This document shows, in pieces, positions 44,935 through 56,573 of a DNA stretch of 64,000 bases. Below the pieces are notes generated by a model. That model saw nothing but the letters and a program-made list of their open reading frames with translations. It did not search any database and had not been told where the DNA came from. This DNA is from an uncultured Chryseobacterium sp. (lineage in GTDB: Bacteria; Bacteroidota; Bacteroidia; Flavobacteriales; Weeksellaceae): assembly GCA_913778085.1 (NCBI GenBank), contig CAJYXJ010000064.1:62001-126000 (forward strand), given 5' to 3'. Numbering within the stretch: position 1 is the first letter of the stretch; each line of letters opens with the position of its first letter. A program made the position numbers and the translations under genes.

Positions 44935-47013
44935 ATGATTAAAATGAAGAAAATTCTATTCATTTTTCTGATGATTTTATCTCAGATTACTTTTGGACAA
45001 TCCAGTTCAGACTGCGGCGGTAACGTTCAGGTCTGTGGAAATACGCCCATTTCTTTTACACCAACAGGTCCCGGAAATGTCCTGGAAACATTGGGAGGAT
45101 GTCTTTTTGCGGAACATTTTTCCATCTGGTATACGTTTACGGTAGCCACTTCGGGTACTTTAACCTTTACCATTAACCCGAATGTTGCATCTACAGATTA
45201 TGACTGGGCAGTATACGGACCCAACGTAACATGTTCCAACCTCGGATCTCCTATCAGATGTAACTATTCAGGGACTTCAGGTCCAACAGGACTGAATATG
45301 ACCAATACCAATACTTCATCTACTGCCGCAGGATCTCCTTTCTGTTCTTATATGGATGTAGTGGCAGGACAGACTTATTATCTTATTGTAGACAACTTCC
45401 AGTCTACTACAAACGGATTCGTGCTGACATGGGGCGGTACCGCAACCCTGGTCTCTCCATTTAACAGCGCCTATCAGCCTTATCCTTTCTTACCACCGGG
45501 AAATCCGGCCGCTAACCCTAATGATCCGAGAGAGGTTATTGTCTGTTCAAACCCTGCTGTATTTGACTTTACAACTTTAAGTGCCGGAATTATTAATAAT
45601 AATCCGAACTTCAACGTTTCTTATTATTATAACTCAAACGATGCGATTTCAGGAAATAATCCGATCACCACACCTATCACGGTGAATACAACGGATATTT
45701 ATTATTACGCCATTACTTACTCGGTTCCCGGAGCACCTGCCACGGCAATTAACCGTTGCCGTATCCCCGGTAAATTTAAATTTATACAGCGGGCCATCAC
45801 CGGCACCAATGCTACCCTGACCAAGTGTAATAACAATAACATGGGAACTGCAGTTTTTGATCTTACCACTGCCAATGTGACCACGGATCCTGCGCTGACA
45901 AAAAAATATTATCCGACCCTTGCAGATCTTAATGCAGGAACCAATGAAATTACAAATCCTTATCAATACATATCGGCGGGAGGTGATGTTTACGTTTTGC
46001 TGACTTCCCCTTACGGATGTAAAGCAACTGCGAAAATTACATTAAGCTTCTTCCCCGTTGTAACCGTTATGGATGTTACCCTGAGATCATGCTATATTCC
46101 AGCAAATCCTGCAACGGCTTCATTTGACCTTACTTCCGCTTCGGTAACATCGCAGACCGCGACCAAGAAATATTATCCGTCTATAACGGATGCCGTAGCC
46201 GGAACCAATGAAATACTGAATCCTACAACTTTTGTTTCTCCAAACGGAGTTGTTTTCGTAAAAGTAACTGATGCCAACGGATGTTATAATGTAGCTAAGG
46301 TAACGCTGGTTGTTCTTCCTCCGGTATACTCCAGCCTCCTTGAAGATAAAATTATCTGTATGGAAGATACTACCACGCTGGATGCTGGACCGGGATTTAC
46401 TTCCTATAAATGGAGTACCGGTGCCACATCACAGACAATCAGCAATGTATCTGTAGGGACTTATTGGGTGGATCTGAAAACAGGAGATTGCGTTACAAGA
46501 CAGACCGTAAAAGTCTATCCTTCCGAGCAGCCTGTTGTTTCAAATATTGATATTACCAACAACACCGTTACCGCAAATGTTGTTGGAGGAACGCCGCCTT
46601 ACAAATACTCACTGGACGGCATCAAATGGCAGGATTCCAATGTCTTTAATAACGTTCCGAGAGGTGACAATACCATTTTTGTAAAAGATGGATATGACTG
46701 TGATCCTATTACGATAAACATAGTGATCCCGAACCTTGTAAATGTAATTACACCTAATGGAGACGGCGTAAACGATGTAATTGACTATTCCGCGTTAGCC
46801 GGTAAAAAAGGTTTGGTCTTCACCATCTACGACAGATACGGTGTAAAAGTAGGCCAGGCCGATAAATCCACCGGTTACAAATGGGACGGAACTACACTGG
46901 GTAAAAAAGTTCCTACAGGAACTTACTGGTACTCGGTAGAGTGGAATGAAAATGACAAGAAAAATACACCATTTAAATTCTCCGGATGGGTAATGGTGAA
47001 AAACAGAGAATAA
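44935..47013 (+). CDS. T9SS type B sorting domain protein, N-type A, C-type 1
   Basis: A 692-residue exported protein; the second ATG (44944) may be the true start. After the signal peptide comes a beta-sandwich N-domain (about 22-180) with paired cysteines and HFSIWYTFTVATSGTLTF. Two 80-residue repeats follow, each beginning with a cysteine and N-rich turn (TLTKCNNNNMGTAVFDLT) and closing near GC...ITL. Then a DAGPGF...WSTGAT Ig-like domain, a SprB-like repeat and the CHU_C type B sorting domain from VITPNGDGVNDVIDY to the end. It should be secreted by T9SS and shown on the surface. Confidence 0.92.
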   Translation: MIKMKKILFIFLMILSQITFGQSSSDCGGNVQVCGNTPISFTPTGPGNVLETLGGCLFAEHFSIWYTFTVATSGTLTFTINPNVASTDYDWAVYGPNVTCSNLGSPIRCNYSGTSGPTGLNMTNTNTSSTAAGSPFCSYMDVVAGQTYYLIVDNFQSTTNGFVLTWGGTATLVSPFNSAYQPYPFLPPGNPAANPNDPREVIVCSNPAVFDFTTLSAGIINNNPNFNVSYYYNSNDAISGNNPITTPITVNTTDIYYYAITYSVPGAPATAINRCRIPGKFKFIQRAITGTNATLTKCNNNNMGTAVFDLTTANVTTDPALTKKYYPTLADLNAGTNEITNPYQYISAGGDVYVLLTSPYGCKATAKITLSFFPVVTVMDVTLRSCYIPANPATASFDLTSASVTSQTATKKYYPSITDAVAGTNEILNPTTFVSPNGVVFVKVTDANGCYNVAKVTLVVLPPVYSSLLEDKIICMEDTTTLDAGPGFTSYKWSTGATSQTISNVSVGTYWVDLKTGDCVTRQTVKVYPSEQPVVSNIDITNNTVTANVVGGTPPYKYSLDGIKWQDSNVFNNVPRGDNTIFVKDGYDCDPITINIVIPNLVNVITPNGDGVNDVIDYSALAGKKGLVFTIYDRYGVKVGQADKSTGYKWDGTTLGKKVPTGTYWYSVEWNENDKKNTPFKFSGWVMVKNRE

Positions 47014-47030
47014 AGCTAGAAATAGCAGGA

Positions 47031-47061
47031 AAAAAAACCGCTTGGTAAAAGCGGTTTTTTT
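47031..47061 (+). terminator. Intrinsic terminator
   Basis: AAAAAAACCGC (47031-47041) pairs with GCGGTTTTTTT (47051-47061), ending in a long T run. It follows the first T9SS cargo gene by 17 bases. Confidence 0.9.
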
Positions 47062-47105
47062 CACATTAATAAAAAAGAAATTTAATTATATAAAATCAAG
47101 TTACA

Positions 47106-49448
47106 ATGAAGAAATTACTACTTCTGACTGTCTTGTTTCTGTCGCAATTGCTTTTTTCACAATCCGATTGTATATCAGCAATTCCGGTGTGCGGAAACTC
47201 CGACATCTCTTACAATCCAAGTAGTTCGGGAACCATTCAGGAAGCCACCGCGGCAAGCTGTCTGGATGTGGAGCATTATTCCGTTTGGTATGTTTTTACC
47301 GCTGCAACTACCGGAACCATCGAGTTTACCATTACACCAAATACCGTTCCCGGCGTAACGCATTATGATTATGACTTTGCGGTTTACGGGCCGAACATCA
47401 ACTGCGCTACCTGGGATTTCGGTAACGCCATCCGATGTAACTTCTCCGGACTTACAGGACCGACAGGTTTAAGCTCAACCATTACAGGTAGCCAGTGGGA
47501 AGCGCCTTTGAACGTAACGGCAGGGGAAACTTATTATCTTCTGATTGACAATTATATTCCGAGTAACCCTTACGGATTTTCATTAACCTGGGGAGGGACA
47601 GCTACGTTGACTTCCGCATTTAACGATCCGGCATTGACGCCAAATCCATTTATTACGCCGGGAGCACCGGCAGCAAACCCGGCCGATCCGAATGAGATCC
47701 TGAAATGTGCCTTACCGACCATGTTCGACTTCAGTACATTATCTGCAGGCATTATCAATAACAATCCGAACTTTACCGTATCTTATCACTTAACAAGTAA
47801 CGATGCGATCACAGGAACTGCACCAATTACCACTCCGATTATGGTAAATGCAACTTCCATCTATTATTACCGAATCAAGTATACGGATCCTGTAGATCCT
47901 ACCAATCCTAAAAACGGCTGTTTCCAGGTTGGAAAGTTCAAATTCCGGTCGGGAAATATTGTGGTAAACAATGCTACGATAACAGCGTGTAATTATGATG
48001 ATACCGGCATCGGTTATTTCGATTTAAATTCCGCAAATGTTTACGGACCTACCAATGTAGTAAAAACGTATTATCCGACGATGGCAGATCTTACTGCAGG
48101 GACCAACCAGATTACCACCCCTTCATCGTATGCTTCCGCCCCTAAAAAAGTATATGTAAAAATTGTTACCAGTGAAGGATGTGTAGGAACCGGAGAAATC
48201 ACACTGCAGTTTCTACCGCCTCTTACAGTGCTTTCAGCTACTGTAAAAGCCTGTAACAATAACAACGCAGGAAACGGAGTATTTGATTTAACAATACCGG
48301 ATGTTTATCCTTCGTCTACAAACATTACGAAAAAATACTATTCTACCCTGGCGGATATGAATGCAGGAACCAACGAGATTACCAATCCTGCTGCTTATAC
48401 TTCTGCTGCACCGAAAACCGTATATGTAAAAGTAAGAACGCCGCAGGGATGTACCGGATACAACCAGATAAGCCTGCAATACAATCCTATAGTTGTGGTA
48501 AATGATGCCAGTGTAGAGGAATGCTATATTGAATCCAACATTACCTTTGCTGCCTTTAACCTTAAAGCAGTAAACGTAACCTCACAAACAGGGGTTACCA
48601 TGAAGTACTTTAAAACCCAGGCTGATGCCCTGGCAGGAACAAATGAAATCATCAATGCGGATACGTATATTGCAACGACAGGCGTTGCTTATGTAAGAGT
48701 AACGAACACCCAGGGCTGTTTTGCGATTGCGAAAATCAACCTGAAAGTTTTACCTCCGGTAAAATCAAGCGTCCTGAAAGACAAGATTATTTGTATTGAA
48801 AATAAAACGACACTGGATGCGGGACCTGGATTTGATGGTTACGAATGGAGCACCGGTGCTACGACTTCATCTATCACCAATGTAGGAGCAGGAGCATATT
48901 GGGTAAAACTGAAAACAGGAAAATGCTGGACTTTACAGGAAGTAAAAGTAAACGCTTCCGCTCAGCCGGTCATTACCAATATTGAGATCAACAATGATTC
49001 ATTCACCATAACTGTTAACGGCGGAAAAGGCCCTTACCAATATTCACTGGACGGCATCAACTGGCAGGACTCCAACACCTTTACCGGACTTCCGAGAGGT
49101 GAAAATAAAGTGTATGTAAGAGATTCCTACAATTGTAATCCGATCAGTGTTCAGGTAACGGTTCCGAACCTTCTGAACGCCATCACACCAAATGGGGACA
49201 ACAAAAACGATTATATCGATTACTCGGCTCTGGCTTATAAGAAAAACCTTGTTTTCACTGTTTATGACAGATACGGAAATATGATCTACAAAGCCGATAA
49301 AATCAGAAATTACACTTGGGACGGTACTTCCAACGGTAAAAAAATTGTTACAGGAACCTACTGGTACACGATTACATGGAATGAAAATGATAAGAACAAT
49401 ACCGAAACGAAGTACAGCGGATGGGTATTGGTGAAAAATATCAACTAA
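47106..49448 (+). CDS. T9SS type B sorting domain protein, N-type A, C-type 2
   Basis: A 780-residue exported protein. The N-domain (VEHYSVWYVFTAATTGTI and following) matches the 44935 protein, but the C-terminal part matches the 51900 protein (AITPNGDNKNDYIDYSALAYKK). It has three 80-residue repeats instead of two (starting at ATITACNYDD, ATVKACNNNN and ASVEECYIES), which explains its greater length. Next come the DAGPGFDGYEWSTGAT domain, a SprB-like repeat and the CHU_C sorting domain. It is probably a surface adhesin secreted by T9SS. Confidence 0.92.
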   Translation: MKKLLLLTVLFLSQLLFSQSDCISAIPVCGNSDISYNPSSSGTIQEATAASCLDVEHYSVWYVFTAATTGTIEFTITPNTVPGVTHYDYDFAVYGPNINCATWDFGNAIRCNFSGLTGPTGLSSTITGSQWEAPLNVTAGETYYLLIDNYIPSNPYGFSLTWGGTATLTSAFNDPALTPNPFITPGAPAANPADPNEILKCALPTMFDFSTLSAGIINNNPNFTVSYHLTSNDAITGTAPITTPIMVNATSIYYYRIKYTDPVDPTNPKNGCFQVGKFKFRSGNIVVNNATITACNYDDTGIGYFDLNSANVYGPTNVVKTYYPTMADLTAGTNQITTPSSYASAPKKVYVKIVTSEGCVGTGEITLQFLPPLTVLSATVKACNNNNAGNGVFDLTIPDVYPSSTNITKKYYSTLADMNAGTNEITNPAAYTSAAPKTVYVKVRTPQGCTGYNQISLQYNPIVVVNDASVEECYIESNITFAAFNLKAVNVTSQTGVTMKYFKTQADALAGTNEIINADTYIATTGVAYVRVTNTQGCFAIAKINLKVLPPVKSSVLKDKIICIENKTTLDAGPGFDGYEWSTGATTSSITNVGAGAYWVKLKTGKCWTLQEVKVNASAQPVITNIEINNDSFTITVNGGKGPYQYSLDGINWQDSNTFTGLPRGENKVYVRDSYNCNPISVQVTVPNLLNAITPNGDNKNDYIDYSALAYKKNLVFTVYDRYGNMIYKADKIRNYTWDGTSNGKKIVTGTYWYTITWNENDKNNTETKYSGWVLVKNIN

Positions 49449-49470
49449 AAGAATTCATTCAGTTTCAAAT

Positions 49471-49504
49471 AAAAAAATCACCTCAAAAATGAGGTGATTT
49501 TTTT
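49471..49504 (+). terminator. Intrinsic terminator
   Basis: AAAAAAATCACCTC (49471-49484) is a perfect complement to GAGGTGATTTTTTT (49491-49504) with a 6-base loop. It ends the second T9SS cargo gene. Confidence 0.92.
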
Positions 49505-49600
49505 ATGCACATGATCTTAACCTCTCTCCTACAATGAATCCGGGCAAAATTGTGTTTATAAATTGTTGAATACTATTTTTTAATTGATTTTCAAAAAAAC

Positions 49601-49608
49601 TATCTTTG
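49601..49608 (+). promoter_or_regulatory. -7 element close to the dnaB start
   Basis: TATCTTTG ends 7 bases before the ATG at 49616, leaving almost no leader. A TTG at 49584-49586 is 14 bases upstream, a short spacer. Confidence 0.45.
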
Positions 49609-49615
49609 CAGAACT

Positions 49616-51208
49616 ATGGCGCAGAAAGAAACATTATCTACCTTGACGAACGGAAACTTTGCAAAAGAACTCTCTATCGCGGATGGGAAAATGCCTCCCA
49701 ACGCATTGGACTTCGAAAGACTGGTGATCGGAACTTTTTTAATTGATAAGAAAGGACTTGATCACTCCATCGATCTGCTCACGCCGGAGGTTTTTTATGA
49801 TCCGAGACACCAGATAATTTTTTCTACCATTTTAAAATTATACGAAGGAAATCAGCCGGTAGATTTAATGACCATTATTCAGGCATTGAAAAAAGAAGAA
49901 AGACTGAATCTGGCAGGTGGCGACAGCTATATCATCGATCTGACGATGGGAGTAAGCTCATCGGCCCACATTGAATACCACGTGCGTGTTATCCTTGAAA
50001 AATATATTTTAAGAAGCCTTATTAACGTTTCAGCCAATGTAATAGACGCTTCTTACAAAGAATCCACCGATGTCTTTGAACTGTTGGACAAAGCGGAACA
50101 ATCGTTTTTCGAAATCACCAACGGAACGATCAAGAAAGGATTCGATACGGCAAACTCCTTGGTAAAACAGGCCATTGACACCATCAAATCCCTGAAAGAT
50201 AAAGAAGGGCTTTCCGGAGTTCCTTCGGGATTTCGGGATGTGGATAAAGAAACCGGAGGCTGGCAGAATTCCGATCTCATCATCATTGCAGCACGTCCGG
50301 CGATGGGAAAAACAGCCTTCCTCCTTTCCATGGCCAGAAATATTGCCGTGGGACATAAAATCCCGATGGCTCTTTTCTCACTCGAGATGGCCTCCGTACA
50401 GCTGATCACCAGGATGATCGCTTCCGAAACAAGAATTTCATCAGAAAAATTAAGAAAAGGAACATTGGACGACGAAGAATGGCAAAGACTGTTCTCCAAC
50501 GTGTCCGAACTGGAAAATGCACCTCTATATATAGACGAAACACCTTCCCTGTCCATCTTCGACTTCCGGGCCAAGTGCAGGAGACTGGTGATGCAACATG
50601 GCGTACGGCTGATCATGGTCGATTATCTCCAGCTGATGACTGCCGGAGGTGGCGGAAAAGGAGTGGGAAACCGGGAGCAGGAGATCTCAATGATTTCCCG
50701 TTCACTAAAAGCCATTGCAAAAGAACTGAATGTTCCGGTAATCGCTCTTTCCCAGCTTTCCCGTAGTGTAGAAACACGCCCCGGAAAACGTCCTCAGCTT
50801 TCCGACCTTAGGGAATCCGGAGCGATCGAGCAGGATGCGGATATCGTATCATTCATTTTCAGACCTGAATATTATAAAATTACCGTTTGGGACAATGATG
50901 AAGAAGGACAGGAAACCTCAACGGAAAACCAGGCCGAACTCATTATCGCAAAGCACAGGAACGGTGCCACTGCCGATGTGCGTCTATCCTTCCTGAAACA
51001 TTTTGCTAAATTCGGGGATATTGAAGCAGCCTTTGACGGCGGCATGGGCGGAGGCTATCCATCCGGCTTCAGCACGCCAGAGCCGAGCGGTTTTGACAAA
51101 ATAAAAACCACCATTCAGCCGGGAGCCGCTTTTGATTTACCGGACAGTTCGAAACTTTCAGGATCTTCCATGAATGATTTTGACGATGACGACGATTTTC
51201 CATTTTAA
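49616..51208 (+). CDS. dnaB: Replicative DNA helicase
   Basis: A 530-residue hexameric helicase that unwinds DNA at the replication fork. The N-terminal DnaB domain (about 20-125) contains NALDFERLVIGTFLIDKKG. The RecA-like C-terminal domain has Walker A ARPAMGKTAF, ALFSLEMASVQL, IMVDYLQLM (Walker B), ALSQLSRSVETR and SGAIEQDADIV. The C-terminus adds a 40-residue glycine- and acid-rich tail ending NDFDDDDDFPF, common in Bacteroidetes. It lies between two pairs of T9SS cargo genes. rnhA follows 52 bases later. Confidence 0.97.
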   Translation: MAQKETLSTLTNGNFAKELSIADGKMPPNALDFERLVIGTFLIDKKGLDHSIDLLTPEVFYDPRHQIIFSTILKLYEGNQPVDLMTIIQALKKEERLNLAGGDSYIIDLTMGVSSSAHIEYHVRVILEKYILRSLINVSANVIDASYKESTDVFELLDKAEQSFFEITNGTIKKGFDTANSLVKQAIDTIKSLKDKEGLSGVPSGFRDVDKETGGWQNSDLIIIAARPAMGKTAFLLSMARNIAVGHKIPMALFSLEMASVQLITRMIASETRISSEKLRKGTLDDEEWQRLFSNVSELENAPLYIDETPSLSIFDFRAKCRRLVMQHGVRLIMVDYLQLMTAGGGGKGVGNREQEISMISRSLKAIAKELNVPVIALSQLSRSVETRPGKRPQLSDLRESGAIEQDADIVSFIFRPEYYKITVWDNDEEGQETSTENQAELIIAKHRNGATADVRLSFLKHFAKFGDIEAAFDGGMGGGYPSGFSTPEPSGFDKIKTTIQPGAAFDLPDSSKLSGSSMNDFDDDDDFPF

Positions 51209-51260
51209 AATAAGGTTGAAACATTCCTGATTTTTAATTAAATCTTAGCCTTAACCTGAT

Positions 51261-51737
51261 ATGAGAATTGAAATATACACCGATGGCGCTTGCAGCGGAA
51301 ATCCCGGAAAAGGCGGATACGGAATTCTCATGCGCGTGCCTGAAAAAAATTATCAGAAAACATTTTCCAAAGGCTTCAGAAAAACCACCAACAACAGAAT
51401 GGAACTGCTGGCCGTTATTACAGCACTGGAAAAACTGAAATCTCCCGATAACGATATCCATATTTATACCGACAGCAAATATGTGGCGGATGCCATCAAT
51501 CAGAACTGGATTACCGGGTGGATCAAACGCGGCTGGAAAAATGTAAAAAATCCTGATCTTTGGCAGAAATTTGTTGTACTCTACAACCTCCATAAGCCCA
51601 AGATGCATTGGATTAAAGGTCATGCAGGACATTTTGAAAATGAGCTCTGCGATAAGCTTGCCGTAGCCGCTGCCGCTTCACCGGATCTTGAAATAGACCA
51701 TTATTTCGAAACTCTGGAAAACAATACTTTATTCTAA
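51261..51737 (+). CDS. rnhA: Ribonuclease HI
   Basis: A 158-residue enzyme that cuts RNA in RNA-DNA hybrids. Catalytic residues are visible: Asp8 in IYTDGACSGNPGKGGYG, Glu48 in NRMELLAVITAL and Asp71 in IYTDSKYVADAI; the fourth aspartate is in FENELCDKLA. The histidine loop KGHAGHFEN is present. Length is typical of bacterial RNase HI. It follows dnaB on the same strand and could be co-transcribed with it. The 162 bases up to the next gene are AT-rich, without a clear terminator. Confidence 0.95.
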   Translation: MRIEIYTDGACSGNPGKGGYGILMRVPEKNYQKTFSKGFRKTTNNRMELLAVITALEKLKSPDNDIHIYTDSKYVADAINQNWITGWIKRGWKNVKNPDLWQKFVVLYNLHKPKMHWIKGHAGHFENELCDKLAVAAAASPDLEIDHYFETLENNTLF

Positions 51738-51863
51738 TATTTACCACTACCACTCCGATCGAAAATTTTCATTATTTACTCTTTAAACTTATCATTTTTT
51801 AATAAATAACCATCATTTCCGGCAAAATTAACATTGAATACATATTTATTGGTTGGGATTTAA

Positions 51864-51871
51864 TATCTTTG
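51864..51871 (+). promoter_or_regulatory. -7 element before third T9SS cargo gene
   Basis: TATCTTTG ends 28 bases before the ATG at 51900. TTG at 51834-51836 is 27 bases upstream, longer than usual, so the -33 is uncertain. Confidence 0.45.
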
Positions 51872-51899
51872 ACAAGTCTAATTTAAAGTATCATTATAT

Positions 51900-54140
51900 A
51901 TGAATAAAAAACTATTGGCTTGTTTTATCCTGCTTTTATCCTTCTTTGCAGGAAAATTCTCTGCTCAGACCTATCAGCTAACAGGAAATCCTGTAGTGAC
52001 CACAGGATGGGATATAGTTCCTTCTGCGGTTGTTAACGGAGATTTTATTCAGCTGACTGCCGATCAGATCTCCCAGGTAGGAGGCATCAAATTAAATGCT
52101 CCTATTAACCTGAAATTCTGTGATAAATGGAGAGTGGAATTTGATTTCAGGATCGATGGAAACGGAACCACCAGCTACGGACGTGGTGACGGTTTTGCTT
52201 TCTGGTACCTTGCGAATCCTCCGGCTGCCTATACTGCAGGAGGCGGTTTAGGGATTCCTGCTAATTCCACCGGACTTATGGTAGGGTTCGATATCTTCAA
52301 CAACAGTACCGAAGCTCAGATGAGCAAGGTGCATGTTCTCTACGGAACCAATAATACCGCCGGATCAAATATTGAATTCAACAATACGCCCGGAAGTACA
52401 TTTCACACGGCCGACCTTAATCCTACCCAGCCTTTTGTAGGAGCTACTTACAAGCATGTGGAAGTATTGGGACAGGTAGATCCTGCTACGCCAGCCAACT
52501 GGATCATCAGCATCAAGATCGATGGAAATACGGTTGTTAACCAGTCTTTTGCCCCTTCCGGAGCAGCTGTAGGAATGACCCAGGGATATTTCGGGTTCTC
52601 CGCCTCAACAGGAGCGGCCAGTGCAAGACATTCTATTAAGAACGCCAAAATTTTCACGGATAAGGTTTCTATCAGCCAACCAAGTGTTTCAGCAAGTGTA
52701 TGCCCGAATCCTTCCACCGGCCAGGGAACTATTAATTTAACCACATTTCAAAGCCAGTTTGTAACCAATCCGGCCAACTACACTTTCACTTACAGCGTTG
52801 GCGGAACTCCAATTACAAATCCTACGAACTTCCAGTTCAGCGGCAATACTACCGTTTCGGTAAGAATTAAGGATAATGCCGGTCTTCTCTGTGATAACCC
52901 GGACGGAAAAATCCAATTGACACTGTCTCCGTTTACGGCAACACCGGCTACCCTTACCGAGTGTAATAACAATAATGCCGGAACAGCAACCTATAACCTT
53001 ACCCTCGCCAACGTAAACGAGCCTGCCGGTTCTACTAAGAAGTTCTACACGACGATGGCAGCAACCACTGAAATCACCAATCCGACCGCTTATGTTTCGG
53101 CAGCCGGAACCGTATACGTGAGAGTTACCACACCTCAGGGATGTCAGGGATCAGCACCTATTACGTTAGCCTTTTATCCGCAAATTGCCTCACAGGATGC
53201 CACCATTGAATCCTGCTTTATTGATGTTGCACCGACTACGGCCTTATTCAATCTTACCCAGGCGAATGTAACCTCTGCAACGGGAGTGACGAAGAGATAT
53301 TTCAAAACCCAGGCTGATGCTCTGGCAGGCACCAATGAAATTCTAAATCCAACGGCTTATATTGCAACGTCATCTACCGTCTATGTAAGAATTACGAATC
53401 TTGCGAATTGCTTTGTGATCGTAAAAATAACTCTGAAGGTACTTCCTCCGATTTATTCTTCCATATTAAAAGATAAGACGATCTGTATTGATGCCAAAAC
53501 CAGCCTTGATGCAGGCCCTGGATTCGACAGCTACCTATGGAGCACAGGGGCAACAACCCAATCTATTCAGAATATTGCACCGGGGCAATACTGGGTACAA
53601 TTAAAATCCGGAAGATGTACCAGCCTGCAGACCGTAAAAGTAAATGCGGCCAGCCAGCCGGTAATTTCAAGTATTGATATCAGCAATACTACCATTACCG
53701 TAAATGTAAAGGGAGGAAAAGGTCCTTTCCAATACTCTCTTGACGGCATAAAATGGCAGGATTCAAATGTGTTCACCGGACTTTCGAGAGGCGAAGTAAC
53801 GGTTTATGTAAAAGATTCTTACAACTGTACACCAATCCATGTTCAGATCACGGTGCCTAACCTGATCAATGCCATTACGCCAAACGGTGATAATGTAAAT
53901 GATGTCATCGACTATTCGGCTTTAGCATATAAAAAAGACCTTGTCTTTACCGTATATGACCGATACGGAAACAAGCTGTATGAAGCCAACAAAATAAGAA
54001 ACTTCAAATGGGATGGAACTTCCGGCGGTAAAAAAATACTGACAGGTACTTACTGGTATACCATCACATGGACTGAAAACGATAAAAACAATACACAAAC
54101 ATCTTACAACGGTTGGGTATTGGTAAAGAACAGAGAATAA
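51900..54140 (+). CDS. T9SS type B sorting domain protein with L-type lectin-like domain, N-type B, C-type 2
   Basis: A 746-residue exported protein. After the signal peptide (cleavage near KFSAQ) lies an L-type lectin-like domain, about residues 23-250, with VEFDFRIDGNG, GFAFWYLANPP, GLMVGFDIFNN and ARHSIKNAKIF, which in this family bind carbohydrate. A PKD/Ig-like stretch, two 80-residue repeats (TLTECNNNNAG, ATIESCFIDV), the DAGPGFDSYLWSTGAT domain, a SprB-like repeat and the CHU_C sorting domain follow. The C-terminal half is very similar to that of 47106. It is probably a surface lectin or adhesin. Confidence 0.92.
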   Translation: MNKKLLACFILLLSFFAGKFSAQTYQLTGNPVVTTGWDIVPSAVVNGDFIQLTADQISQVGGIKLNAPINLKFCDKWRVEFDFRIDGNGTTSYGRGDGFAFWYLANPPAAYTAGGGLGIPANSTGLMVGFDIFNNSTEAQMSKVHVLYGTNNTAGSNIEFNNTPGSTFHTADLNPTQPFVGATYKHVEVLGQVDPATPANWIISIKIDGNTVVNQSFAPSGAAVGMTQGYFGFSASTGAASARHSIKNAKIFTDKVSISQPSVSASVCPNPSTGQGTINLTTFQSQFVTNPANYTFTYSVGGTPITNPTNFQFSGNTTVSVRIKDNAGLLCDNPDGKIQLTLSPFTATPATLTECNNNNAGTATYNLTLANVNEPAGSTKKFYTTMAATTEITNPTAYVSAAGTVYVRVTTPQGCQGSAPITLAFYPQIASQDATIESCFIDVAPTTALFNLTQANVTSATGVTKRYFKTQADALAGTNEILNPTAYIATSSTVYVRITNLANCFVIVKITLKVLPPIYSSILKDKTICIDAKTSLDAGPGFDSYLWSTGATTQSIQNIAPGQYWVQLKSGRCTSLQTVKVNAASQPVISSIDISNTTITVNVKGGKGPFQYSLDGIKWQDSNVFTGLSRGEVTVYVKDSYNCTPIHVQITVPNLINAITPNGDNVNDVIDYSALAYKKDLVFTVYDRYGNKLYEANKIRNFKWDGTSGGKKILTGTYWYTITWTENDKNNTQTSYNGWVLVKNRE

Positions 54141-54151
54141 TAAATGAAAAA

Positions 54152-54180
54152 GATCACTCCGATGGCGGGTGGTCTTTTTT
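54152..54180 (+). terminator. Intrinsic terminator
   Basis: GATCACTC (54152-54159) pairs with GGGTGGTC (54167-54174) with two G-U pairs, followed by seven or more T. It lies inside an open frame that extends upstream of the next gene, which supports the later start for that gene. Confidence 0.8.
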
Positions 54181-54311
54181 TATTCCTGCCTATACATTCA
54201 ATCAACTTAAAAAAATTTTTCTCTTACCGAAATATCCGACAATTACTTTATAATTTTAACAGTAATGCCATACATCGGTTTATAATATTAATCATCAGAC
54301 AATTTGTTCAA

Positions 54312-56573
54312 ATGAAAAAACGATTACTCATTAATTTTTTTATCATTGTCATCTGTTTTGCAGGAAAGCTTTCCGCACAGACGTATCAGCTTACCGGAAA
54401 TCCCGTTAATACAACGGGATGGGATCTTGTTTCCAATGCTGCTGTAAACACAGATTTTATACAGCTGACCCAGGATGTTACCAGTCAGTTTGGAGTGGTA
54501 AAATTATCAACCCCCATCAATCTTAAATATTGCGACAAATGGAAAGTAGAGTTCGATTTCAGGATTGACGGAAACGGAACGGCAGCCTATGGCCGTGGTG
54601 ACGGATTTACTTTCTGGTATCTTACCAATCCCCCGACAACCTTTGCAGGTGGCGGTGGATTAGGAATTCCTTCAAACGCTAACGGGCTGATGGTGGGATT
54701 TGATATTTTCAATAATACTACGGAAGGCCAGATGAGCAAGATCCATGTTTTATATGGAACCAACAACCTGCCTGCCGGAAACAACAATATCGAATACAAC
54801 AATACACCGGGAAGCACTTATCATACCCCCGATCTGAATCCTACACAGCCATTCGTAGGATCCACTTACAAGCACGTTATCGTAAACGGCACTATCGATC
54901 CTGTAAATCCGAATATCTGGAATATTAAAATCCAGCTGGACGGTGTGGTTTTGGTAGACCAGCCCTTTACCGCTTCGGGAGGAGCAGTCGGAATGACGGC
55001 CGGCTATTTCGGATTCTCAGCGGCTACGGGAGGAGCAAGCGCAAGACATTCGATTAAAAATGCTAAAATCTATATCGACAAAGTTCCGATCCTTACCAAT
55101 ACCGTTACGCCTTTCGTATGTGTAAACCCGGGTACAGGAAACGGAACGGTAAATCTGACCACTTTTCAGAACCAGTTTGTAAGTAATCCGGCAAACTATG
55201 TTTTCACCTACTTCGGACCTGGCGGAACACCGATTACCAACCCTTCCAATTATCAGTATTCCACCGGCACCACGACAATTACCGTCGTTGTAAAAGACCC
55301 TTCGTCAACCCTGTGCGATAACGGTGACGGAAAAATCGTCCTGACACCTACGGCTTTTGCTGCCAATGATGTAACACTTACCGGATGTAACAATAACAAC
55401 GCGGGAGGAGCCGTTTTCAACCTTACCGCCGCCGCAGTATCATCAGTCGCCGGAAGTACGGCAATATTTTATAATTCGATGTACGACCTGAATAATCATA
55501 TTAACCCTATTACGAACCCTTCGGCATTTTTCTCACCCGCTGCTACCATTTATGCCCAGGTAACTACTCCTCAGGGTTGTACAGATGTTGCCGACATTAC
55601 GCTTGCCATCTCCCCGGTAGTTGTTGTACAGGATGCTACATTAAGAGCATGTGCGAGTGCTGCCAATCCTTCTACAGGATTATTTGACCTTACAACAGCT
55701 ATCATATCTTCCCAGACGGGTACAAAAACATATTACCCATCGCTCGCAGATGCACAGAACGGAACAAACCCGATCCCGACACCGGCAACCTATACTTCTC
55801 CGAACGGCATCATATATATCAAATTGACAAATGCAAACGGCTGTTACGGTATTGCCAAAGTAACGCTGATTGTCATTCCGCAGGTATTCTCCACGACGCT
55901 GGACGATAAAATTATCTGTATGGAAGATACAACCACGCTGGATGCAGGTCCTGGCTTTACCGCTTATAAATGGAGCACGGGAGCAACTACCCAAAGCATC
56001 AGCAATGTAACGGCAGGAACTTATTGGGTAGACCTGAAAACGGGAGACTGTACTGCAAGACAGACCGTTAAAGTCTATGCTGCCAAACAGCCTGTAATCA
56101 CAAGTGTTGATATCTCCAATACAACGGTAACGATCTATGCCAATGGAGGAACTGCTTCTTACAAATATTCGATGGACGGAATTCACTGGCAGGACTCCAA
56201 TGAGTTCAAAAATGTACCGAGAGGAGACAGCCAAGTGTATGTAAAAGATGCTTATGACTGTGATCCGATTACCATTACCATCGTTGTTCCGAATCTTATC
56301 AATGTAATTACCCCGAACGGTGATGGCGTAAATGATGTTATTGATTATTCTGCGCTAGCCGGAAAGAAAAATCTGGTTTTCAATGTCTACGACCGATACG
56401 GTGCGAAAATTCATGAAGCCGATAAATCGAACCGATATAAGTGGGACGGAACTGTAGGCGGTAGAAAAATATCTACCGGAAACTACTGGTATTCCGTTTC
56501 ATGGAATGAAAACGACAAAAAAAGCACGCCCATCAAATATTCCGGATGGGTTCTGGTGAAAAACAGAGATTAG
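54312..56573 (+). CDS. T9SS type B sorting domain protein with L-type lectin-like domain, N-type B, C-type 1
   Basis: 753 residues from the ATG at 54312 (MKKRLLINFFIIVICFAG), which gives a normal signal peptide; an upstream ATG at 54144 would add 56 residues coded across a terminator and is rejected. The lectin-like domain (VEFDFRIDGNG, GFTFWYLTNPP, GLMVGFDIFNN) matches that of the 51900 protein. Two 80-residue repeats follow, starting DVTLTGCNNNN and DATLRACASA. The C-terminal half, with CMEDTTTLDAGPGF and VITPNGDGVNDVIDY, matches the 44935 protein instead. It is probably surface-exposed. Confidence 0.92.
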   Translation: MKKRLLINFFIIVICFAGKLSAQTYQLTGNPVNTTGWDLVSNAAVNTDFIQLTQDVTSQFGVVKLSTPINLKYCDKWKVEFDFRIDGNGTAAYGRGDGFTFWYLTNPPTTFAGGGGLGIPSNANGLMVGFDIFNNTTEGQMSKIHVLYGTNNLPAGNNNIEYNNTPGSTYHTPDLNPTQPFVGSTYKHVIVNGTIDPVNPNIWNIKIQLDGVVLVDQPFTASGGAVGMTAGYFGFSAATGGASARHSIKNAKIYIDKVPILTNTVTPFVCVNPGTGNGTVNLTTFQNQFVSNPANYVFTYFGPGGTPITNPSNYQYSTGTTTITVVVKDPSSTLCDNGDGKIVLTPTAFAANDVTLTGCNNNNAGGAVFNLTAAAVSSVAGSTAIFYNSMYDLNNHINPITNPSAFFSPAATIYAQVTTPQGCTDVADITLAISPVVVVQDATLRACASAANPSTGLFDLTTAIISSQTGTKTYYPSLADAQNGTNPIPTPATYTSPNGIIYIKLTNANGCYGIAKVTLIVIPQVFSTTLDDKIICMEDTTTLDAGPGFTAYKWSTGATTQSISNVTAGTYWVDLKTGDCTARQTVKVYAAKQPVITSVDISNTTVTIYANGGTASYKYSMDGIHWQDSNEFKNVPRGDSQVYVKDAYDCDPITITIVVPNLINVITPNGDGVNDVIDYSALAGKKNLVFNVYDRYGAKIHEADKSNRYKWDGTVGGRKISTGNYWYSVSWNENDKKSTPIKYSGWVLVKNRD

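Follow-up and report, generated by a model that had tools for sequence, protein, structure and literature searches.

The stretch of DNA analysed here, a window of 64,000 nucleotides from an uncultured Chryseobacterium sp. (GenBank assembly GCA_913778085.1, contig CAJYXJ010000064.1, positions 62,001 to 126,000 of the forward strand), carries four genes for surface proteins of the type IX secretion system (T9SS). The genes, all on the + strand, are arranged as A1-A2-(dnaB-rnhA)-B2-B1. Each product has an N-terminal head, a stem of repeats and a C-terminal cassette of ~318 residues, which comprises the last repeat, two domains (D1 and D2) and a T9SS type B C-terminal sorting domain (CTD). A1 and A2 share one type of head and B2 and B1 another; the cassettes pair A1 with B1 (type C1) and A2 with B2 (type C2). 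We consider it very probable that the locus as a whole is best explained by exchangeable heads carried on C1 and C2 anchors that are fixed to their positions.

All four proteins pass the curated cut-offs of CHU_C (51-60 bits; cut-off 27) and TIGR04131 (58-64 bits; cut-off 35). The B heads exceed the L-type lectin cut-offs of PF03388 (52.6-56.0 bits; cut-off 24) and PF00139 (33.0-36.4 bits; cut-off 26.3), and score 41.7-43.5 bits with PF18483, under that family's own cut-off of 78.3. The alignment of VIP36 to the B1 head spans query residues 15-235 of 244. On these matches, the B heads are predicted to be L-type (legume-like) lectins and are putative sugar binders. The A1 and A2 heads are modelled as sharing a PPC-like sandwich; a sequence search of the PDB with the A head returned a single match, with an E-value of 0.43. 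Foldseek aligns the stem and cassette of the A1 model (44935-47013) with parts of GhpA, the grappling-hook protein of Aureispira, at a low TM-score.

The first-pass annotation of this DNA had paired the halves of the four proteins in the same two ways, with the switch placed before the last repeat. Its coordinates and quoted motifs are correct, and its picture of different heads on matched anchors is right as anatomy. In the window genome, amino acid identity over the first ten 40-column windows is 0.46-0.66 for the A1/A2 heads and 0.50-0.83 for the B1/B2 heads. At the C-terminal end, A1 and B1 have the motifs CMEDTTTLDAGPGF and VITPNGDGVNDVIDYSALAGKK in common, and A2 and B2 have SALAYKK, AITPNGDN and YFKTQADALAGTNEI. 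The clearest C-terminal window (column 760) gives 0.85 for A1/B1 and 0.82 for A2/B2, versus 0.57-0.78 in the other four pairs; the contrast is weaker in the remaining C-terminal windows. In the 61 genomes that fill every slot, the split of outer from inner genes (A1,B1|A2,B2) is best in 61/61 for the last repeat and the CTD, in 59/61 for D1 and in 60/61 for D2. An earlier set of 29 such genomes gave the same quartets, with heads as A1-A2/B1-B2 and cassettes as A1-B1/A2-B2. Just before the switch the signal is soft: in the penultimate repeat, the head split is best in 37/61 genomes, the outer|inner split in 19/61 and the third split in 5/61. The switch is nevertheless placed where the last repeat begins, as the first-pass annotation had it, and the cassette borders of all four genes lie there (Table 1).

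Table 1. Features of the locus, with positions in the window.
Feature	Positions	Strand	Remarks
Small TPR-like protein gene, 202 aa	44298..44906	+	Weak TPR matches, below cut-off
A1 head and stem (C1-type gene)	44935..46056	+	Modelled PPC-like beta-sandwich (model residues 24-168) plus repeats
A1 C1 cassette	46057..47013	+	Block borders; CHU_C/TIGR04131 matches. Last repeat from 46057, D1 from 46324, D2 from 46534, type B CTD from 46738 to stop
A2 head and stem	47106..48488	+	Head family of A1; one repeat more than A1
A2 C2 cassette	48489..49448	+	Sequence comparison, block borders; CHU_C/TIGR04131 matches
dnaB (replicative helicase)	49616..51208	+	Housekeeping gene in mid-locus; name as in the first-pass annotation
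rnhA (ribonuclease H)	51261..51737	+	Name as in the first-pass annotation; adjoins dnaB in fetched loci
B2 head and stem	51900..53180	+	Predicted L-type lectin plus repeats; PF03388 (4.9e-15), PF18483, PF00139
B2 C2 cassette	53181..54140	+	Sequence comparison, block borders; CHU_C/TIGR04131 matches
B1 head and stem	54312..55616	+	Predicted L-type lectin plus repeats; PF03388 (5.1e-14); PDB relatives VIP36/ERGIC-53
B1 C1 cassette	55617..56573	+	Sequence comparison, block borders; CHU_C/TIGR04131 matches

Domain trees, which had been suggested as a check, branch differently for heads and cassettes. The cassette tree, built like the lectin tree from all slot rows of 37 genomes (142 rows), separates {u1,d1} from {u2,d2} with support 100, and its only misfits are the single upstream genes of 5 genomes, the A1 orthologue. 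Grouping the cassettes of the A genes together is rejected by the approximately unbiased (AU) test (p-AU 0.000185, 10 genomes). Just before the last repeat, a branch with support 81 separates the A genes from the rest, and the test does not reject the alternative grouping (p-AU 0.264, 10 genomes). Residues 611, 623, 637 and 680 of the CTD (A1 numbering) are fixed or almost so and distinguish the two cassette types: C1 has G at residue 611 in 137/137 sequences, and C2 has Y623 and N637 in 136/136.

This arrangement extends across the genus, which was sampled at one genome per species with the window genome as G000. Excluded from the sample were the rows of G016, whose contig stops before the A genes, and of G238, a lectin stretch without dnaB; four of 39 further genus genomes (G129, G224, G230 and G242) are outside the locus sample. 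The first gene downstream of rnhA is B.C2 in 71/71 loci, and later downstream genes are B.C1 in 75/75. The first gene upstream of dnaB is A.C2 in 65/70 loci and A.C1 in 5/70, these being genomes without A2. Genes farther upstream are C1 in 67/69, both exceptions lying in expanded A arrays (G193 and G244). Where only one gene lay upstream, its cassette type decided whether it filled the A1 or the A2 slot; extra tandem copies stand outside the four slots of the 61-genome analysis but within its outer-gene counts. Since the first 37 genomes supplied the cassette profiles, the rule holds there partly by construction. Among the 34 other loci, counted separately, the first gene on either side of dnaB-rnhA is C2 in 34/34, and the outer genes are C1 in 36/38 upstream and 37/37 downstream. 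A named, overlapping genome collection follows the rule in 73/73 (first) and 79/79 genes downstream and in 67/73 and 67/67 upstream. Thus, each cassette type is fixed to its position, C2 beside dnaB-rnhA and C1 outside, and because the rule holds throughout the sampled same-genus loci, the two-by-two mosaic is old and position-locked.

The gene order had been described as a mirror. This is so for the C-types only; with all four genes on the + strand, the locus is not an inverted repeat, and an inverted duplication was rejected as the source of the order because the genes lie on one strand and their heads differ in fold. The rule survives some variation in the heads: G021, G024 and G028 have B2-type lectins on C1 cassettes, with C1 still in the outer downstream place, and the B2 lectins form two clades, 9/37 grouping with the B1 lectins. 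At L099 (G193) and L101 (G244), the A1-A2 region is expanded to alternating C1/C2 genes, which suggests duplication of the gene pair. At five loci (L068, L069, L070, L071 and L055), a shorter lectin gene (663-665 aa), the third of its locus, lies outside B1 and carries a C1 cassette.

Same-type cassettes convert each other occasionally. This is clear in G232, where A1/B1 DNA identity is 0.96-1.00 in five of six last-repeat blocks and 0.82-0.93 over D1, flanked by 0.53-0.67 just upstream and 0.60-0.80 in D2. For other genomes the data suggest the same: in all four cassette blocks, 0/999 permutations reach the observed within-genome identity of same-type pairs, a sign of concerted evolution. The largest excess of within- over between-genome identity is that of A1-B1 in the last repeat (0.669 v 0.601) and D1 (0.827 v 0.751); for the A2-B2 CTD the values are 0.840 v 0.804. 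Conversion by proximity alone was rejected, since the neighbours A1/A2 and B2/B1 show an excess of at most 0.015 per block, versus 0.012-0.076 for the distant same-type pairs.

It could be argued that continuous conversion alone produced the pairing, the heads marking the true paralogy (tandem A1/A2 and B1/B2) and A1-B1 and A2-B2 overwriting each other within genomes. Such a process would account for the within-genome excess of both pairs, for the near-identical tract in G232 and for the A1 and B1 cassettes of G008, which are sisters (98). However, the 31 A2 cassettes are united in a single clade (93), with the rest in a few large slot-wise clades that span species; the pairing must therefore be mainly old. 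Further, only 1/61 genomes is near identical over a 120-nt A1-B1 window (G232, 0.992; the next reaches 0.917). In the window genome, DNA identity within the cassette pairs is at most 0.79 per 40 codons, and thus no recent conversion is visible there. We regard conversion alone as an unlikely explanation, if still one with a real claim. The first-pass annotation had seen in the locus the mark of module exchange or gene conversion; the rejection of head branching by the cassette tree and the G232 tract uphold this, but the arrangement is found throughout the sampled genus and is not a recent event of this strain.

What moves at present appears, from identities and trees, to be mostly the head, with the cassettes staying put. 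In 20/68 genomes, some more distant genome exceeds the nearest one in A1 head identity by over 15 points, the threshold being arbitrary. By the same criterion, the counts are 9/65 for A2, 6/71 for B2 and 2/69 for B1 heads; for cassettes they are 0 (of 68) for A1, 1 for A2, 0 for B2 and 1 for B1. G160 and G214 have cores 99.1% identical, with 46% identity in the A1 head and 87% in the cassette. The A1 head of the window genome is 53% identical to that of its nearest relative, G013, and 83% to that of G201, and its cassette identities to the two are 0.89 and 0.81. Over 35 genomes, A1 head identity has a Spearman correlation with core identity of 0.04, and the values for D1, D2, the CTD and the whole cassette are 0.49, 0.40, 0.59 and 0.38. 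In all 20 A1 cases, the change-point lies between 3 residues before and 101 residues after the start of the last repeat.

The DNA of the window genome gives a direct view of one such island. Identity to G013/G014 falls from ~0.85 to 0.41-0.65 across ~44250 to ~46050 and then recovers; these ~1.8 kb hold the TPR-like gene (0.41-0.58) and the A1 head. A second dip, versus G014, lies in the A2 head (0.57-0.69 at 47250-47550). The TPR-like protein is 29% identical to its G013 counterpart at a core identity of 97.3%, and 46% identical between G002 and G020. It changes with the head in clear cases; over 20 genomes, the correlation of its gene with the head (Spearman 0.57) is no higher than that with the core (0.59). 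A partnership of the protein with particular A1 heads is possible. A gene of TPR-like size is found upstream of A1 in 20/36 loci.

Unswapped A1 heads that evolve very fast under selection would fit the mean head identity of just 0.54 over 35 genomes. Three observations make this account very unlikely: heads can be much closer in more distant genomes while the cassette is not, as in the window genome; the DNA edge is abrupt and adjoins the border of the upstream gene; and the A1 heads reject (p-AU 4.6e-37; 22 genus genomes, the group having been picked after the tree was viewed) a clade of six species that has support 98 in the core tree. The same clade is present in the A1 cassette tree, with weak support (48).

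The sharing of cassettes between heads is seen beyond this locus. Five genomes of three neighbouring genera have a cassette-bearing gene directly upstream of dnaB, and an A head is visible in three of them; the frames of G098 and G115 are interrupted or cut at a contig end. The neighbouring-genus genomes have one lectin gene, on another contig or ~150 kb away (G157). In the cassette tree that joins these genera to 13 genomes of the genus, the lectin cassettes of genus g31 cluster with those of another A gene (support 100). Since cassettes are shared across head types both in the genus of the window genome and in g31, this has happened at least twice. Upstream of dnaB at L107 (G157), a tandem pair of frames has identical C-terminal cassettes, the product of very recent conversion or duplication; the corresponding two of G071 are sisters (96).

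A third head family, IgGFc_binding, appears from profile and tree evidence to share these anchors. The C1 and C2 cassettes of the genus form a single group (94) with three more cassettes of the window genome, one A-headed and two IgGFc-headed; its other IgGFc-array and remaining cassettes lie outside. By profile, C1 occurs on IgGFc_binding-type heads in 14/19 fetched genomes plus the window genome, and the IgGFc-headed C1 group has support 97 in a tree of 9 genomes. A C2-like IgGFc-headed cassette is found in the window genome (beside C2, support 88, on a long branch) and in G019 (by profile only). Two tandem IgGFc_binding-headed T9SS proteins with C1 and C2-like cassettes lie at L062:12981-15851 and L062:10027-12891, on contig C9 of the window genome.

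Export and anchoring rest on the CTD plus a PorP/SprF-like shuttle (PMC9143113, PMC12618676). In the window genome, 15 type B CTDs are accompanied by a single PorP_SprF match. A PF11751 search of this genome found no PorP/SprF-like shuttle gene beside the locus, which is on contig C64; the sole match is on contig C78. Separate shuttles for C1 and C2 were rejected on this single match and on a search of 41 genus genomes; a divergent shuttle beyond the family may exist. PorP_SprF is matched in 40/41 genus genomes, nearly always as one full-length frame; second matches are weak and interrupted (in G001, a piece on another contig), and G247, which is 87% complete, is alone among the 41 genomes searched in giving none. 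With 15 type B CTDs and one PorP_SprF match, the cassettes should be interchangeable for export, so that chimeras formed by recombination within or beside the last repeat would work. Convergence, by which the type 1 and type 2 CTD residues would have been gained independently on A and B through two partner proteins, fits the concentration of discriminating columns in the CTD (7/91 over the threshold, versus 2/89, 1/70 and 1/68 in the other blocks) but is highly improbable given the pairing over all ~318 residues, last repeat included (61/61), the nearly identical DNA tract in G232 and the single PorP_SprF match.

We propose that each of the four T9SS-exported proteins is built of a head and stem that can be exchanged, followed by the last Ig-like repeat as a hinge and by D1, D2 and the type B CTD as an anchor cassette. 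On the stem of the genus, C1 and C2 would each have been joined to both PPC-like (A) and L-type lectin (B) heads, probably by ectopic recombination at the repeats. The plan was then inherited with cassette type tied to position. Later homologous recombination has swapped heads, above all that of A1, within the conserved cassettes and flanking genes, as incongruent trees and identities show; the flanks would supply homology for the incoming DNA, and the donors were probably other species. The likely effect would be to vary binding while export and anchoring stay matched to the single PorP/SprF shuttle found.

Several observations weigh against exchangeable heads on position-fixed anchors, or narrow that reading. 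Some opposite-type pairs also slightly exceed 999/999 permutations (A1-B2 in D1, 0.672 v 0.658), and silent sites give weak support for widespread conversion, with identities of ~0.34-0.48 and an excess in some control pairs as well. The lectin cassettes of G071 and G157 cluster across genera (95), apart from the A cassettes that accompany them in each genome. The number of 20 A1 cases counts genomes and not independent events, and includes both members of some pairs. The A1 last repeat is no better correlated with the core than the head is (Spearman 0.04). Nor are the exchange edges at one point: of the 20 A1 edges, 9 are no more than 25 residues from where the repeat starts; the A2 edges, 9 in number, all lie close to the junction of repeat and D1; and the B2 edges are scattered, three near the lectin end and three inside the cassette (6 in all). 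Finally, plain vertical descent without function could account for the separation of C1 and C2; the proposed mechanism accounts for the anatomy, and the place-keeping of the two types may reflect mere descent or two anchor functions. It is possible, at rather long odds, that C1 and C2 are functionally distinct anchor classes (for example, in partners or surface places), each provided with a PPC-like and a lectin head, with the last repeat as a standard joint. If so, every head class would be displayed in both anchoring modes.

Certain details of the locus stand apart from this argument. The start of B1 is probably 54312; the open frame extends back to 54144, and the B1 row of G000 in the larger (71-locus) set has a 56-residue longer open frame. 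dnaB is matched in 58/60 relatives, its best matches within the genus being 90-99% identical. Other neighbours are genes that we take to be MFS, nitroreductase and nadB. A Bacteroidota-type promoter pattern has 2 matches in the window versus 4.0 expected by chance, and none in the locus.

Module exchange in surface proteins is known. In Helicobacter pylori, the paralogous outer-membrane adhesins babA and babB trade segments and have shared and variable parts. Here, the head folds are two and unrelated, and head exchange, at one genome per species, is apparently across species. Surface proteins of Porphyromonas gingivalis show domain rearrangement, allelic exchange and mosaic alleles unrelated to strain phylogeny (PMC5266723). 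The likeness lies in combinatorial adhesin modules on Bacteroidota surface proteins, and gingipains carry a T9SS C-terminal domain; that system concerns gingipain adhesin domains in strains of one species, whereas ours is a genus-wide plan of two heads by two anchors, with the anchors locked in position. Flavobacterium johnsoniae also has type B CTD proteins, and one shuttle (Fjoh_1677) can serve several CTDs, as PMC12618676 and PMC9143113 describe; 9 of its 12 substrates adjoin a shuttle-like gene, in contrast to the 15 CTDs and one PorP_SprF match, away from the locus, found here. In the open-licence literature on T9SS gene conversion and domain shuffling, titles and abstract openings of the papers listed gave no treatment of this locus, an absence that is weak evidence. 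The fixed two-by-two anchor plan appears to be a new form of such exchange, with a function that is at most putative.

A fixed locus in 71/71 sampled dnaB-holding loci offers natural head swaps on constant anchors of two subtypes. The F. johnsoniae shuttle work (PMC12618676) raises the question of secretion signal versus targeting signal, and the residue differences between C1 and C2 make it possible to ask directly which information type B CTDs carry in addition to export. For Chryseobacterium, the locus shows where binding specificity can change with the export signal untouched.

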